A stretch of 13,842 bases of DNA from a bacterium (GTDB taxonomy: Bacteria; UBP15; UBA6099; DSWB01): the NCBI GenBank assembly GCA_020061125.1, contig JAGUYV010000441.1:1-13842 (forward strand), read 5' to 3'. How positions within the stretch are numbered: the stretch's first letter is position 1; every line of letters begins with the position of its first letter. The translations under genes were made by a program, and so were the position numbers. Positions 5,668-13,842 of the stretch are shown one piece after another. The notes under the pieces were generated by a model that was not told where the DNA came from, did no database searches, and saw only the letters and a program-made list of their open reading frames with translations.

Positions 5668-6303
5668 GTGATCATCAGGCAGCTCGAAGTCAGCCCCTTC
5701 ATGGAAAACGCCTACATCGTGGGATGCGAGGAAACAAAGCAGGCCGTGATCTTCGACCCCGGCGACGAAGCCGGCCGCATCGCCGCGGAAGTTCAGCGCC
5801 TGGGCCTCACCGTCAGCGAGATCATCGCCACCCACGCACACATTGACCATATCGGCGCCGTGCACGCTCTCAAGGAGATGCTCGGCGTTCCTTTCCGCCT
5901 TCATAAAAACGAGGAAATTCTCGTCAAGGCCTATGACCAGCAGTGCCGCATGTTCGGCATCCAGTTCGGCGCCGAGCCGGGCATAGACGGATACATCGAG
6001 GAGGGCGACGAAATCGCCGTGGGCAACCTCAAGGCAAAAGTCCTGCTCACCCCGGGCCACTCGCCCGGCGGCCTGTGTTTCCATTTCCAGGGCAGCCCCG
6101 GCAGCGTCATCGTGGGCGACACCCTGTTCATGGGTTCCATCGGCCGCACCGATCTCATCGGCGGCGACATGAAAACCCTCATCGCCAACATCAAAAACAA
6201 AATCCTCACCCTGCCCGAGGACACGCAGGTGTACTCCGGCCACGGCCCCATGACCACCGTGGGCAGGGAAATGAAAACCAATCCATTTCTGCTGATGTAC
6301 TGA
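5668..6303 (+). CDS. metallo-beta-lactamase-fold hydrolase, glyoxalase II-like
   Basis: A 211-residue single-domain MBL-fold hydrolase. The start is GTG 5668, with GGGAGG (5656-5661) 6 bases upstream; the encoded M-I-I-R-Q-L-E-V start fits the family. The dinuclear metal motif H-x-H-x-D-H is T-H-A-H-I-D-H, giving His56, His58, Asp60 and His61. Further ligands are His131 (P-G-H-S-P-G-G), Asp151 (V-G-D-T-L-F) and His192 (S-G-H-G-P). This set matches the hydroxyacylglutathione hydrolase/YcbL group, which hydrolyses thioesters such as S-lactoylglutathione. The protein lacks the longer C-terminal domain of classical GloB, so YcbL-type is the closer fit; the real substrate is unknown. It ends 18 bases from the convergent minus-strand gene, with no clear terminator between them. 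Confidence 0.92.
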   Translation: MIIRQLEVSPFMENAYIVGCEETKQAVIFDPGDEAGRIAAEVQRLGLTVSEIIATHAHIDHIGAVHALKEMLGVPFRLHKNEEILVKAYDQQCRMFGIQFGAEPGIDGYIEEGDEIAVGNLKAKVLLTPGHSPGGLCFHFQGSPGSVIVGDTLFMGSIGRTDLIGGDMKTLIANIKNKILTLPEDTQVYSGHGPMTTVGREMKTNPFLLMY

Positions 6304-6321: not shown

Positions 6322-6876
6322 TTAATCCCAGGTCACGACCATTTCGCAGCAGTCGTCGCCGTTGCACACGCATTTGGTTTCTTTTGTGGAAACATTTTTT
6401 CCGCCGGACAGCTCGACCATTTTGTTGGCCCAGCCGATGAGGTTGCGGCAGAAGGTGCGGTGGGGCATGCCGTAGCCCTTGACGCGGAACGCGGCGCGGC
6501 CCGGCTGGGTCTCGATTTCCAGGTCGCCGGTGTCGTGGAACGCGCTCCACAACTGGGGCACGCGCGTGAAAGTTTCCTCGGGCGTGGTTTTAATCTTGAG
6601 TTTGTGAATAGTGGTGAGACCCATTTGCGCGGTCATTTCGCCCAATTCTTCCATGGCGCGCGGGTGGGTGAATTTGAGGGCTTTGTCTATGGAATCGTCC
6701 AGGTCTTTGAGCACTTCGGCGGGGTACCAGCTCGAACTGATCACGCCGCCGCCAGTGAGCAGTTCCCGGCTCTCGGGAGTGAGCGCGGCTATGATTTTCA
6801 GATAGGCGTCGTCGCCGTAATGTTCTTTGAGCATCTGGAGCCTGCTAAGAAGCGCCACACCTTTGACTTTTGCCAT
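6322..6876 (-). CDS. uncharacterised cysteine-rich protein with a V4R-like C-terminus
   Basis: A 184-residue protein that I do not recognise at family level with certainty. ATG 6876 is chosen because AGGGAGA lies about 8 bases upstream; an in-frame start 16 codons earlier has no such site. There is no signal peptide or membrane segment, so it is probably cytoplasmic. The C-terminal part, with G-x-M-P-H-R-T-F-C-R-N-L-I-G-W (136-149), E-L-S-G-G-K-N-V (155-162) and C-V-C-N-G-D-D-C-C-E (169-178), resembles V4R/heme-NO-binding-like and DUF2378-type sensor domains, which end in a C-x-G-D-x-C-x-F/V strand. Cys143, 169, 171, 176 and 177 could bind a metal. A ligand-sensing or transcription-linked role is a guess. 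It lies 86 bases past the RNase D start region's operon end, possibly with its own extended -10 promoter. Confidence 0.7.
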   Translation of the reverse strand: MAKVKGVALLSRLQMLKEHYGDDAYLKIIAALTPESRELLTGGGVISSSWYPAEVLKDLDDSIDKALKFTHPRAMEELGEMTAQMGLTTIHKLKIKTTPEETFTRVPQLWSAFHDTGDLEIETQPGRAAFRVKGYGMPHRTFCRNLIGWANKMVELSGGKNVSTKETKCVCNGDDCCEMVVTWD

Positions 6877-6919
6877 GAGGAACTCTCCCTTAACAGAAAT
6901 GCCATTCCCGTGCGTGACG

Positions 6920-6949
6920 ATCATATCACAGCGCGGGGGTGGGGCACAA
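6920..6949 (-). promoter_or_regulatory. possible extended -10 promoter of the V4R-like gene
   Basis: Minus strand TGATATGAT gives an extended -10 (TATGAT at 6920-6925). The -35 candidate TTGTGC (6944-6949, 18-base spacer) is weak. Confidence 0.4.
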
Positions 6950-9401: not shown

Positions 9402-11165
9402 ATGTTCAAGAAACTGGTCTGTTCGGTGCTTTTTGCGTGCCTGGCGTTGTGCGGAACCATGGCCGCTGCGCAGGATACGGTCGCGGACGAGGATGTCATC
9501 ATCAAAAAAATCGAAGTGGACGGCAATTTCGAGGTATCGGACGAGGTGATCATGGCCGTGGTGCAGTCCCGGACCGGCGAGCCGATCAACACGCAGACGC
9601 TCGAGGACGACCTGCAGCGCATCTTCGACCTGGGCTTCTTTTCCGAGGAAATCAAGGCCCGGCTCTCGGAATACGAGGGCGGCGCCATGATCACCTTCAA
9701 GGTCGTGGAAAACCCGGTGGTGGAAAAAATCGTGATCAAGGGCAACACGGTTATCACCGAACAGGCCATCCGGGAGGCCATGCAGACCAAGGAAAACGCG
9801 ATTCTTAACAAGGTGAACCTGGAGCGCGATGTCAAAACCATCGAGCAGCTCTACAAAGACAAGGGATTCATCGTGGCCCGTGTGGTGGACCTGCAGGTGG
9901 CGCCGGACGGCGCGCTGAACATCGAACTCAAGGAAGGCATCGTCAAGGACATCGAAATCAAATATGTGATCCGCGACGAAGACACCGACGAGATCATCGA
10001 GGAAAGCGCCAAGGGCAAAACCAACCCGATCGTGATTCTCCGGGAAATGAAGACCAAGCCCGGGGACGTTCTGAACGCCGAGCGCATCCGGCTGGACCTG
10101 CAGCGCGTGTTCAACCTCGGATTCTTCGAGGATGTGACATGGGACTTCGACACGGACCCGGCGCGCGTGGACATCGGCAGCATCGTGCTGCTGGTCAAGG
10201 TCGAGGAAGCCAAGACCGGGCAGGTGGGATTCGGCGCGGGCTACAGCAGCAGCACGGGCCTCACCGGGTTCTTGAGCTACTCGGAGCGCAACTTGAGCGG
10301 CATGGGCAGGCGCGTCAGCTCCCAAGTCGAATTCGGCGGCAAGCGCAACGACTTCCAGGTCGGCTACTTCGAACCGTGGATTGACAAAAAGCACACCAGC
10401 TTCGAAATCAACCTCTACAACACCTCGACCGAAAACCTGCGCTACGGCCTGGGCGGCGTGGAAGTGGACGACTATCGCGAAGAGCACCAAGGGTTCGACT
10501 TCACCGTGGGCCGCCCCGTGTCCGACTACACCCGCGCGTTCGTCGGGTTCAAGGCCGAGAGCGTGAACATCGAGCCGACGGCCTACGACTACCTCGACGG
10601 CGCCATCCGCACCATGAGCTTTTCTCTGCGCACCGACACCCGCAACAACATCTTCAATCCCTCCACCGGCCGACTGGACACAGGCACCGTCGAATACAAC
10701 GGCAGCTTCCTGGGCGGCGACTACGATTACAAAAAGTTCAGCCTGGACCTGCGCCGCTTTTATCCCATCAAAAGGGACAAGCAGGTCTTCGGCATTCACA
10801 TGTTCATGGGCTTGAGCCAGGACAATGTGCCGCGCTTTGATTACTACGATGTGGGCGGCGTGAACACCGTGCGCGGATATGAGGAATACGAATTCGCCGG
10901 TTCCAAGGCCGTGTACTTCAACGCCGAGTACCGGTTCGCCCTGGCCGGAAATGTGTCCGGCGTGCTGTTCAGCGACGCGGGCGGCGTGTGGAACAGGGCC
11001 GGCGACATGAGCCTGGACCCCGATGAATATGTGAAGTCCGTGGGCATGGGCCTGCGGCTGAACATCTCGTACTTCGGCGGGCTTGGCCCCATCCGCCTGG
11101 ATTACGCCTACGCCATCAGCAGAGAGCAGACCAAGATTCACTTCGGATTCGGCCACATGTTCTGA
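9402..11165 (+). CDS. bamA: outer-membrane protein assembly factor BamA (Omp85), three POTRA domains
   Basis: A 587-residue Omp85 protein that folds and inserts beta-barrel proteins into the outer membrane. A Sec signal peptide (1-23, ending A-A-A before Q24) is followed by POTRA repeats at about 32-104, 106-178 and 180-270, each with a beta-strand, the G-N/G-F-F turns and paired helices; the third carries an insertion near 190-210. The barrel covers about 272-587. It contains the Omp85 lid-lock motif V-R-G-Y (490-493) and ends in F-G-F-G-H-M-F with the terminal Phe of the beta-signal. Gammaproteobacterial BamA has five POTRAs and about 800 residues, so this is a short form. AGGGGG (9391-9396) precedes ATG 9402. 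It leads an envelope operon with an unknown barrel-like protein and two Skp-type genes. Confidence 0.95.
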   Translation: MFKKLVCSVLFACLALCGTMAAAQDTVADEDVIIKKIEVDGNFEVSDEVIMAVVQSRTGEPINTQTLEDDLQRIFDLGFFSEEIKARLSEYEGGAMITFKVVENPVVEKIVIKGNTVITEQAIREAMQTKENAILNKVNLERDVKTIEQLYKDKGFIVARVVDLQVAPDGALNIELKEGIVKDIEIKYVIRDEDTDEIIEESAKGKTNPIVILREMKTKPGDVLNAERIRLDLQRVFNLGFFEDVTWDFDTDPARVDIGSIVLLVKVEEAKTGQVGFGAGYSSSTGLTGFLSYSERNLSGMGRRVSSQVEFGGKRNDFQVGYFEPWIDKKHTSFEINLYNTSTENLRYGLGGVEVDDYREEHQGFDFTVGRPVSDYTRAFVGFKAESVNIEPTAYDYLDGAIRTMSFSLRTDTRNNIFNPSTGRLDTGTVEYNGSFLGGDYDYKKFSLDLRRFYPIKRDKQVFGIHMFMGLSQDNVPRFDYYDVGGVNTVRGYEEYEFAGSKAVYFNAEYRFALAGNVSGVLFSDAGGVWNRAGDMSLDPDEYVKSVGMGLRLNISYFGGLGPIRLDYAYAISREQTKIHFGFGHMF

Positions 11166-11195
11166 TCGCGGGCCGGCAGAGGAGCGCTCCAGCAC

Positions 11196-12509
11196 ATGAC
11201 GAAAACCACGAGAAGCCTGATTCTGATGCTCGCGGCGGGGCTGTGCCTGTGCGCTGCGGCCGTGCGAGCCGCCGCCGCCCCTGTGGACTCCGTTTCCAAA
11301 GTGTCCGTTTCCGTGAGCTTCACCTCCAACACTCCGCCCGAACCCATGATTGAAAAAATCAGGTTCAGCGTGGAACAGGTCGGTATCAAGGCCCTCGAAG
11401 GCAAGTCCGTACAGGAAGCGGAACAGCTCACAGGTGAGCTGCGCGACCTCATGGGCAAGATTTTCAACCAGGTGCTCGGCGGCTATCTTGTAAGCAACAT
11501 TGACATCGCCATCGGCGTCGAAACCTCCATCGGCGTTCTCCTGGAACCGATCCCGCCGTTCGCGGAAACCTTTGATGTAACCCTCGAGCTGGCGGGCGGC
11601 ACGCACACGCGCTGGAACGAACTTATGGCCGCGGAACGCGACGCCATCAAGAGCCGGTACAGCGGGTTGCTCAAGGATGTCCCCGTATTGAGCGCGCGCT
11701 GGAGCGCCAAGGTCATCGAGGAGTCCATGCTGGACATCGCGCAGATCGAGGCCCTGTTCCCCGGCTTCCGCATCACGCCGAGCCTGGACATTGGCCGGAA
11801 CGCCGTGCTGCATCTGATCCTCACCCCCATGGGCGAAACTGTGCGCATGGTTAATGTGAAAATCCGTTCCGCAACCATTCCGTCGCTCACGCTCGAAAGG
11901 CTCAAGTACGAAGCCGCGGCGCGCGCGGACCTCATCGTGGGGCTGCCACTGGTGTTCGCCGAAAGCCGCCGCGACATCATCTCCGCGGAAATCGCCTCGC
12001 ACCTCGAAGGCACGCACCTGGCGCAGGTGCTGCGCCTGGGCATCACGCCGAGGCTCACGCTCTCGAGCCGCGCGCGCCTGGTTCTGCTTGTGGAGTCCAA
12101 CCGCTACAGCGGATTCCTGCGCGCCAAGATTAATGTGGGCAAGAACAGGGGCGACACCGATGTGGAAGCTCACGCGGGCGTTTTCCTGTTCAACAATGTC
12201 GAGGTTTTTACCGAGTTCAACTTCGACCCCGGCCCGATCTCCCTGGAAAGCAACTTCGGCGTGGGCTGGCGGCCAAGCAAATTCTTTTATGCGGCCGCGG
12301 GCCGCAACTTCACCGAGGGCATCAACCGAATCTGGCTCGACGGGTACCTTTCCGAAGATGTCATCATTTCTTGGGAAAAAGGCGTGTCCCAGGACAAAAA
12401 ACGGGACATCGAGGGCAGCGTCAAGTTCAAGGCTCACGAGTTCTTCAGCTTCGATATCGTCTCGGATTTCAACACCGATGTCTGGGTGCGTTTCAACGCC
12501 AATCTCTAG
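11196..12509 (+). CDS. unknown exported protein: POTRA-like modules plus short beta-barrel-like C-terminus
   Basis: A 437-residue protein that I do not recognise. A signal peptide (1-28, A-A-A-A before P29) marks it as exported. Residues 34-300 look like beta-alpha-alpha-beta modules. The clearest is about 216-300, with the strand V-N-V-K-I-R-S, two helices, and the closing strands I-T-P-R-L-T-L and A-R-L-V-L-L-V-E-S, which recalls a POTRA domain. From about 307 the sequence becomes alternating hydrophobic/polar strands rich in Phe, Gly and Asn (for example V-F-L-F-N-N-V-E-V-F-T-E-F-N-F, and F-S-F-D-I-V-S-D-F), as in a small outer-membrane barrel or beta-sheet. It has no V-R-G-Y motif, and its last residue is Leu, not Phe. 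It sits 30 bases after bamA and 48 before skp, so it likely acts in outer-membrane assembly. AGAGGAG precedes the ATG. Confidence 0.8.
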   Translation: MTKTTRSLILMLAAGLCLCAAAVRAAAAPVDSVSKVSVSVSFTSNTPPEPMIEKIRFSVEQVGIKALEGKSVQEAEQLTGELRDLMGKIFNQVLGGYLVSNIDIAIGVETSIGVLLEPIPPFAETFDVTLELAGGTHTRWNELMAAERDAIKSRYSGLLKDVPVLSARWSAKVIEESMLDIAQIEALFPGFRITPSLDIGRNAVLHLILTPMGETVRMVNVKIRSATIPSLTLERLKYEAAARADLIVGLPLVFAESRRDIISAEIASHLEGTHLAQVLRLGITPRLTLSSRARLVLLVESNRYSGFLRAKINVGKNRGDTDVEAHAGVFLFNNVEVFTEFNFDPGPISLESNFGVGWRPSKFFYAAAGRNFTEGINRIWLDGYLSEDVIISWEKGVSQDKKRDIEGSVKFKAHEFFSFDIVSDFNTDVWVRFNANL

Positions 12510-12557
12510 CCGGAGGCCCCTTCGCGGCTTCCGCCATTCACAGGAGGAGTTTCACCC

Positions 12558-13046
12558 ATGCAAAAGTTTCTGCGCACCGGTCTGATCATTGCGTCCCTGG
12601 CCATCATCGCCTTCGCCGCTGCTGTGTATGTGAAAACCGGCCAGGCCACGGCCGAGGGAGAGCTTGTGGGCTTCGTGGATTCCGAGGAAATCATGGCCGG
12701 ATACGCGCCCGCCCGCCGCGCCCAGGAGGCCTGGGAGCTTTTCGAGGCCCAGCATCAGAAGCAGCTCGAAGACACGATTTTCAAGAAATACAACACCATG
12801 GATTTGAACACTCTGGACGAGGCGCAGCAGGCCGAGGTTCGAAAAATGTTCGACCAGGCCGACCAGGAACTCAAGGATCAGTTTGAAAAGATCCGCGTGC
12901 AGGAATGGGAGCCGGCCCGCAACAAAATTCAGTCGGCCATAGACACTGTGGCCAAAGAAAAGGGCGTACGCGTGGTTCTGGAGAAAAAGGCGGTGCTTTC
13001 CGGCGGAGTGGACATGACCGCGGATGTCGTCGCCAAGCTGAAGTAA
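12558..13046 (+). CDS. skp: Skp/OmpH-family periplasmic chaperone
   Basis: A 162-residue OmpH/Skp-type protein. An N-terminal hydrophobic segment (8-24) is a signal peptide or anchor. It is followed by the family's opening strand L-V-G-F-V-D-S-E-E-I-M (36-46) and the helix start Y-A-P-A-R-R-A. Residues 55-135 are charged and helical, forming the coiled-coil tentacles, and the closing beta part is G-V-R-V-V-L-E-K-K-A-V-L (136-147) with D-M-T-A-D-V-V-A-K-L at the end. Skp trimers hold unfolded outer-membrane proteins in the periplasm and deliver them to BamA. AGGAGGAG (12542-12549) precedes ATG 12558. The helical arms are short for the family. The position downstream of bamA fits the usual bamA-skp order. 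Confidence 0.9.
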   Translation: MQKFLRTGLIIASLAIIAFAAAVYVKTGQATAEGELVGFVDSEEIMAGYAPARRAQEAWELFEAQHQKQLEDTIFKKYNTMDLNTLDEAQQAEVRKMFDQADQELKDQFEKIRVQEWEPARNKIQSAIDTVAKEKGVRVVLEKKAVLSGGVDMTADVVAKLK

Positions 13047-13058
13047 GAAAGCGCTTCT

Positions 13059-13842
13059 ATGAAATGGCTTTTCCCCGCCGCCATGTTCGTGTCGTCCCTG
13101 GTGCTGCTGGCCGCCGCACACCGAGTGCAGCCGCCGCGTCCGCCTGTGGGCGTGGTGCATCATGACCGGCTCCTGGACGCCGATCCCGTGGCCGCGGGTC
13201 TGGCCCGCGTGGAGACGGAGCGCATGCGGCTTCACGCCCGCGGCGCCACCGCTGCGGAGCTGGCCCTCGATGATCGCCCCGATCTCGAAAAGCTGATTGC
13301 GGATGACGGACCGGAACTTGATGCCGGCCTCCGCCAGAGCCGCGATCTGTATCGCGATTTCCTCGCAGATTCCATGGCCGTTTCCATTGATTCCCTGCAT
13401 CGCGAGGCGCAGCAGGAATTCGCGCGGTACGCGGAACAGAGATATCGCGCCATGCTCGAGGAATTCGACGCCGCCCTGGCCAAACTGGAGATCGAAACCA
13501 TGGACGAGCCGCTGCGCGAGGAGCGCCTGCGTTTGCTCAACCTGCGACTGGCCCTGGGCGCTCTCACACGGGACCGCATCGTTCTGTCTCCAGTCCGCAT
13601 CGAGCAGCTCGAATCCGAACTCCAGGCCCTGTTGTTCGTGCTCGAAATCAAGCAGCGCCGCGGCCAGCGCCTCTTTTCCATCAAGGAAAAAAGAACCTTT
13701 GAAGAGCTTCAGAACCTCACGCAGTCCGGCATGGACGAGCGATCCCGCGACATAGACGCAAGGCTCAATGAATTGATTTCTGGCATGGAGCGCAACGCCG
13801 AGGCCCTCATCTCGGGGCGCGAAGCCGATCAGCAACGCACAA
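13059..13842 (+). CDS. second Skp/OmpH-like coiled-coil exported protein (3' end outside window)
   Basis: The frame is open from ATG 13059 to the window end (261 codons, no stop), beginning 12 bases after the skp stop codon. A signal peptide or anchor covers about 1-21. The next segment, V-G-V-V-H-H-D-R-L-L-D-A-D-P-V-A, matches the pattern of the Skp entry strand in the neighbouring gene (V-G-F-V-D-S-E-E-I-M). The rest is almost entirely charged alpha-helix (Arg, Glu, Leu, Ala), suggesting long coiled coils, with two helical stretches (about 60-130 and 135-250). It is already longer than a normal 160-190 residue Skp. It is probably a diverged, enlarged paralogue in the same operon, working in outer-membrane protein transit. 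Plain periplasmic coiled-coil protein is the alternative. Confidence 0.75.
   Translation, partial: MKWLFPAAMFVSSLVLLAAAHRVQPPRPPVGVVHHDRLLDADPVAAGLARVETERMRLHARGATAAELALDDRPDLEKLIADDGPELDAGLRQSRDLYRDFLADSMAVSIDSLHREAQQEFARYAEQRYRAMLEEFDAALAKLEIETMDEPLREERLRLLNLRLALGALTRDRIVLSPVRIEQLESELQALLFVLEIKQRRGQRLFSIKEKRTFEELQNLTQSGMDERSRDIDARLNELISGMERNAEALISGREADQQRT

Follow-up and report, generated by a model that had tools for sequence, protein, structure and literature searches.

The window, that is, the whole stretch of DNA analyzed (13,842 nt), carries bamA, a gene for an exported protein of 437 residues, and skp, in that order and on the same strand. We refer to the product of the middle gene as the POTRA-barrel protein, after its predicted fold. 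The features of the locus are:

9402 to 11165, forward strand: bamA, encoding 587 aa, with matches to Pfam PF01103 (E 2e-40) and, in three stretches, to PF07244
11179 to 11185, forward strand: ribosome-binding site AGAGGAG of the POTRA-barrel gene, read directly, inside the gap after bamA
11196 to 12509, forward strand: POTRA-barrel protein gene, encoding 437 aa (ATG at 11196, stop ending at 12509)
11196 to 11279, forward strand: signal peptide of the POTRA-barrel protein, residues 1 to about 28, from sequence
11298 to 11549, forward strand: predicted POTRA module 1, residues 35-118, from AF2 and column counts
11568 to 11828, forward strand: predicted POTRA module 2, residues 125-211, from AF2, HMM-HMM comparison and column counts
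11847 to 12098, forward strand: predicted POTRA module 3, residues 218-301, from AF2, HMM-HMM comparison and column counts
12105 to 12503, forward strand: predicted ten-stranded C-terminal beta-barrel, residues 304-436, from AF2, VIA and alternating faces
12558 to 13046, forward strand: skp, OmpH-like chaperone (PF03938, E 4e-14)
13059 to 13842, forward strand: further exported protein, placed where a second Skp would lie and truncated by the end of the contig; without a Pfam match

The earlier note had read the gene as encoding an exported 437-residue protein between bamA and skp, and its coordinates are exact. The bamA stop (11165) and the ATG (11196) have 30 nt between them, and no promoter or terminator pattern was seen in 11000-12700. 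The same note had placed two Skp-like chaperones downstream, which is borne out only in part, because the first matches OmpH and the frame starting at 13059 is not recognized as OmpH by Pfam. In the window's order and in the phylum of genome G252, skp is followed by this second exported protein (window 13059-13842, L008:11626-12648, L010:10782-11870, L040:7675-8448), with intact counterparts in relatives, for example at L008:11626-12648; none of three scanned members has an OmpH/Skp match in Pfam, and the protein could be either a Skp that has diverged or a different periplasmic factor. Elsewhere in the window, at 6322-6924 (reverse strand) and 5668-6303 (forward strand), a protein with a V4R domain (scoring under the Pfam cut-off) adjoins an MBL-fold hydrolase.

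Searches of Pfam, NCBIfam and PDB sequences with the 437-residue protein returned noise only, and an RTC match (E 0.013) in one member was rejected as noise since it is absent from relatives. Scanning genome contigs with a single sequence brought up no relatives; an alignment query of the contigs found six, and the gene is present in all seven genomes of the window's order, with 37-40% identity to the window protein. A profile built from these seven sequences and run on 386 diverse genomes detected divergent homologues having 17-22% identity to the window protein. With the grown profile the gene was found in 71 of 81 Synergistota genomes (a phylum we take to be counted among the Terrabacteria), including a genome taken as Thermanaerovibrio acidaminovorans, and in 4/4 genomes of a second phylum and 8/10 of a third; the phyla with the gene thus number four, namely the window's own lineage, Synergistota and two small phyla. 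No further phylum with the gene appeared in another sample of 385 genomes, an absence that is provisional because in these large searches only four candidates were scored per genome. Weak profile matches in G154, G194 and G357 were rejected for want of a bamA context, and the remaining matches above E 0.01 were treated as noise. Homologues are 410-470 aa long and occur as one copy per genome. In a tree of the family each of the four groups forms a single, fully supported branch, as expected for vertical descent of an old gene; ancient transfers among phyla could also have happened. We conclude that the POTRA-barrel proteins are a genuine, divergent family, and that family and fold are both well supported. 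In the open-access literature we found no description of the protein, nor anything on ten-stranded POTRA proteins.

Structure prediction indicates a modular N-terminal region. An AF2 run with 7 sequences (pLDDT 76) and a run with 40 homologues (pLDDT 91, pTM 0.79) gave the same elements: three beta-alpha-alpha-beta-beta modules, for which pLDDT was mostly above 90, followed by ten C-terminal strands. HMM-HMM comparison detects the modules as repeats of one another (modules 1 and 2, P 1e-5; modules 2 and 3, P 4.5e-4; modules 1 and 3, P 1.8e-3). A glycine-aromatic pair before strand 2 is a trait of POTRA domains. Module 1 has such a pair at Gly96, a residue present in 40/40 homologues; module 2 has one at G190 (33/40), together with P163 and W169, which are invariant among the 40; in module 3, P251 is invariant and G249 is present in 39/40. 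In a Foldseek search against the PDB, the best 50 matches were all Omp85 proteins (TamA, BamA, Toc75), the best being TamA 8us1 (E 5e-11, probability 1.0); global TM-scores were low (about 0.2), which we ascribe to different domain orientations and a smaller barrel. The POTRA-like modules that the earlier note had suspected in the N-terminal two thirds are therefore seen as three in the AF2 model, with Foldseek in agreement, and we regard the presence of three POTRA modules as predicted.

The C-terminal third is predicted to form a barrel, as had been proposed from the strand pattern. Both AF2 runs place ten strands in 133 residues, and in this prediction there is no room for six more. A VIA comparison with residues 303-437 gave as closest solved folds the surface adhesin OpcA (Z 13.6 over 128 residues, 2.9 A) and the designed ten-stranded TMB10 (Z 13.3 over 133 residues, 3.2 A), both of which, unlike the POTRA-barrel protein, are without POTRAs. 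Clear hydrophobic and polar faces are seen in nine of the ten strands of the POTRA-barrel protein. The mean hydrophobic/polar alternation exceeds that of 5000/5000 shuffles, and conservation is higher on the polar face than on the variable hydrophobic face (p 0.009). This combination of alternating strands and a more conserved polar face argues for a membrane barrel whose polar interior is conserved. The C-terminal residue is L, F or I in all 40 homologues, and a lipobox is present in none of them. A soluble periplasmic protein, with a nitrobindin- or lipocalin-like barrel that does not span the membrane, would fit the nitrobindin-type soluble barrels found further down the VIA ranking (Z about 10) and the modelled length of some strands, just 7-8 residues; however, the transmembrane barrels rank above, the conservation of the two faces is the reverse of the pattern of a soluble core, and the invariably hydrophobic C-terminal residue also speaks against it, so we consider it very improbable. 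Signal peptide, amphipathic antiparallel strands and hydrophobic C-terminal residue together predict an outer-membrane barrel.

The predicted architecture is Omp85-like in appearance but, on the model, is not that of a standard Omp85 protein. Omp85 proteins are defined by a transmembrane barrel of 16 strands (PMC11116518, PMC13067283), to which, as they are described, one to seven POTRAs are joined (PMC13067283), vs. ten strands here. The VRG(F/Y) motif of loop L6, whose absence from the window protein the earlier note had already recorded, is absent from all 40 homologues, and no scanned homologue matches PF01103 or another Omp85 profile. BamA, encoded just upstream, likewise combines a POTRA arm with a barrel, but differs in its 16 strands, its PF01103 match and its VRGY motif. 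An HMM-HMM comparison with BamA found no similarity between the two families, so that a recent bamA duplication as the origin of the gene finds no support at the sequence level. A TamB-like C-terminus, suspected at first from the strand pattern, was also rejected: no scanned homologue matches PF04357 (TamB/AsmA-like), tamB genes are separate, and POTRAs and barrel are modelled instead.

The gene is tied to bamA. We mapped the neighborhood in 49 genomes using BamA, Skp and LpxD profiles. In 48/48 genomes that have upstream sequence, across four phyla, the POTRA-barrel gene is directly preceded by bamA with both on one strand, and in many Synergistota the open frame of the POTRA-barrel gene overlaps the end of bamA. 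The gene directly downstream is skp in 12 of the 49 and lpxD in the other 37. The pairing exceeds chance: it holds in 7/7 genomes of the order, and the divergent homologues always lie behind bamA. The neighborhood survey for which the earlier note had called thus upholds the pairing, and none of the outcomes set beforehand as refuting that note (no POTRA or barrel fold, a match to an unrelated family, no pairing with bamA in relatives) was observed. A comparable bamA-skp-lpx neighborhood occurs in the TamB/BamA/Skp clusters of diderm Firmicutes and spirochaetes (PMC5007114), but the extra neighbor there is a long TamB, whereas here it is the POTRA-barrel protein, with TamB encoded elsewhere. 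In three of the four phyla, a short protein (about 180-270 aa) is encoded immediately ahead of bamA (L040:3007-3708, L041:4525-5328, L042:9370-9966, L043:10533-11249, L044:10260-10835, L136:3310-3855); on visual inspection its N-terminus is helical and a hydrophobic segment is present, and it is possibly another conserved neighbor at the locus.

The gene was not found in 10/81 Synergistota genomes. Where bamA was found in these, bamA is followed directly by lpxD (9/9), and we conclude that these nine genomes represent clean loss and that those lineages can do without the gene. The BamA of the window has three POTRAs, as the earlier note had counted, and so does BamA in 5/5 gene-free genomes checked. 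The proposal that the protein supplies POTRAs missing from BamA does not survive this result, since BamA has three with or without the gene and some Synergistota have lost the gene cleanly. Two Synergistota without the gene have a BamA with about 100 additional residues (L134:400-2517 and L137:424-2496; 691-706 aa), and these lie ahead of the three POTRAs.

The same neighborhood bears on two other explanations. The protein could be a lipid- or LPS-handling factor linked to the lpx genes of the operon, as the frequency of lpxD as the next gene might suggest; but skp intervenes in the window's order and in the phylum of G252 while the adjacency to bamA is never broken, and no LPS-transport protein (LptD/LptE) is among the structural matches listed, though one may lie beyond them; we consider this role decidedly improbable. 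Alternatively, the protein could form a separate pore for secretion or export, resembling those of two-partner secretion, that serves one or few substrates and stays in the operon for co-regulation. FhaC-type translocators also consist of POTRAs and a barrel, and a single copy per genome and dispensability in some lineages would suit such a pore. However, no substrate gene adjoins, the neighbors being bamA, skp and lpxD in every genome, and single-substrate transporters seldom hold one locus across four phyla; we consider a pore of this kind improbable.

The complement of BAM and TAM components bears on a further alternative. By PF01103 search, bamA is the only Omp85 gene in the window's genome, and BamA is the sole Omp85 protein in 12 of 15 genomes with the POTRA-barrel gene that were searched; no BamD scored above cut-off in 14. 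Most genomes have tamB, never adjacent to the POTRA-barrel gene, and most have long TamB genes but no obvious TamA. The protein could accordingly be a TamA-like outer-membrane partner of TamB, acting in translocation and assembly or in phospholipid transport and replacing TamA in phyla without it: proteobacterial TamA also has an outer-membrane barrel preceded by three POTRAs in the periplasm, and it is the best Foldseek match. Against this, the gene always lies beside bamA, not tamB, and TamB detection does not track the gene in the 81 Synergistota (detected/undetected 50/21 with the gene vs. 7/3 without it; Fisher p 1.0), a comparison made with a TamB profile that is weak there. TamA, moreover, is a 16-stranded barrel with a lateral gate and an Omp85-profile match, and a closed ten-stranded barrel would miss that gate; in Borrelia, TamB has been modelled as pairing with BamA itself (PMC13382580). 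A TamA-like role ranks next after the one that we favor, and we consider it unlikely.

We favor the hypothesis, with a probability of roughly one half, that the POTRA-barrel protein is an accessory of BAM, anchored in the outer membrane, and that its POTRA arm handles substrates next to BamA. This hypothesis is favored because the bamA link is unbroken, the frames overlap and a POTRA arm is present, and it specifies an accessory rather than a core role because the gene is dispensable in some Synergistota. According to this hypothesis, the signal peptide would direct export, the C-terminal ten-stranded barrel would insert into the outer membrane, and the three POTRA modules would be positioned in the periplasm next to BamA's own three POTRAs; the modules may bind unfolded outer-membrane proteins, BamA POTRAs or both by beta-augmentation, substrates may be taken from Skp and handed to BamA, and insertion itself would be carried out by the 16-stranded barrel of BamA. 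We infer the physical complex with BamA and the substrate handling; conserved gene order alone is no proof of a complex, because lpxD and skp share the operon and are not BAM subunits. The two roles offered in the earlier note have fared differently: a second assembly factor is now the leading reading, and lipid handling has gained no specific evidence.

BamG of the Bacteroidota BAM provides a precedent for a BAM subunit that is itself another transmembrane barrel, although BamG is a 14-stranded FadL-family protein for which no POTRAs are described (PMC12611786). Terrabacterial BamA has been described as acting without additional lipoprotein subunits, with the proviso that unknown factors may exist (2026 review, PMC13067283). 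Tentatively, the POTRA-barrel protein may be an ancient, dedicated second membrane subunit of BAM in Synergistota and related deep lineages, working beside BamA or completing an open BamA gate. If so, BamA would have a partner in bacteria in which it was believed to function with no partner lipoproteins, and the known POTRA-barrel architectures would widen to ten strands, vs. the 16 of Omp85. The protein would then be a concrete candidate BAM partner in bacteria far from E. coli, including cultured Synergistota.
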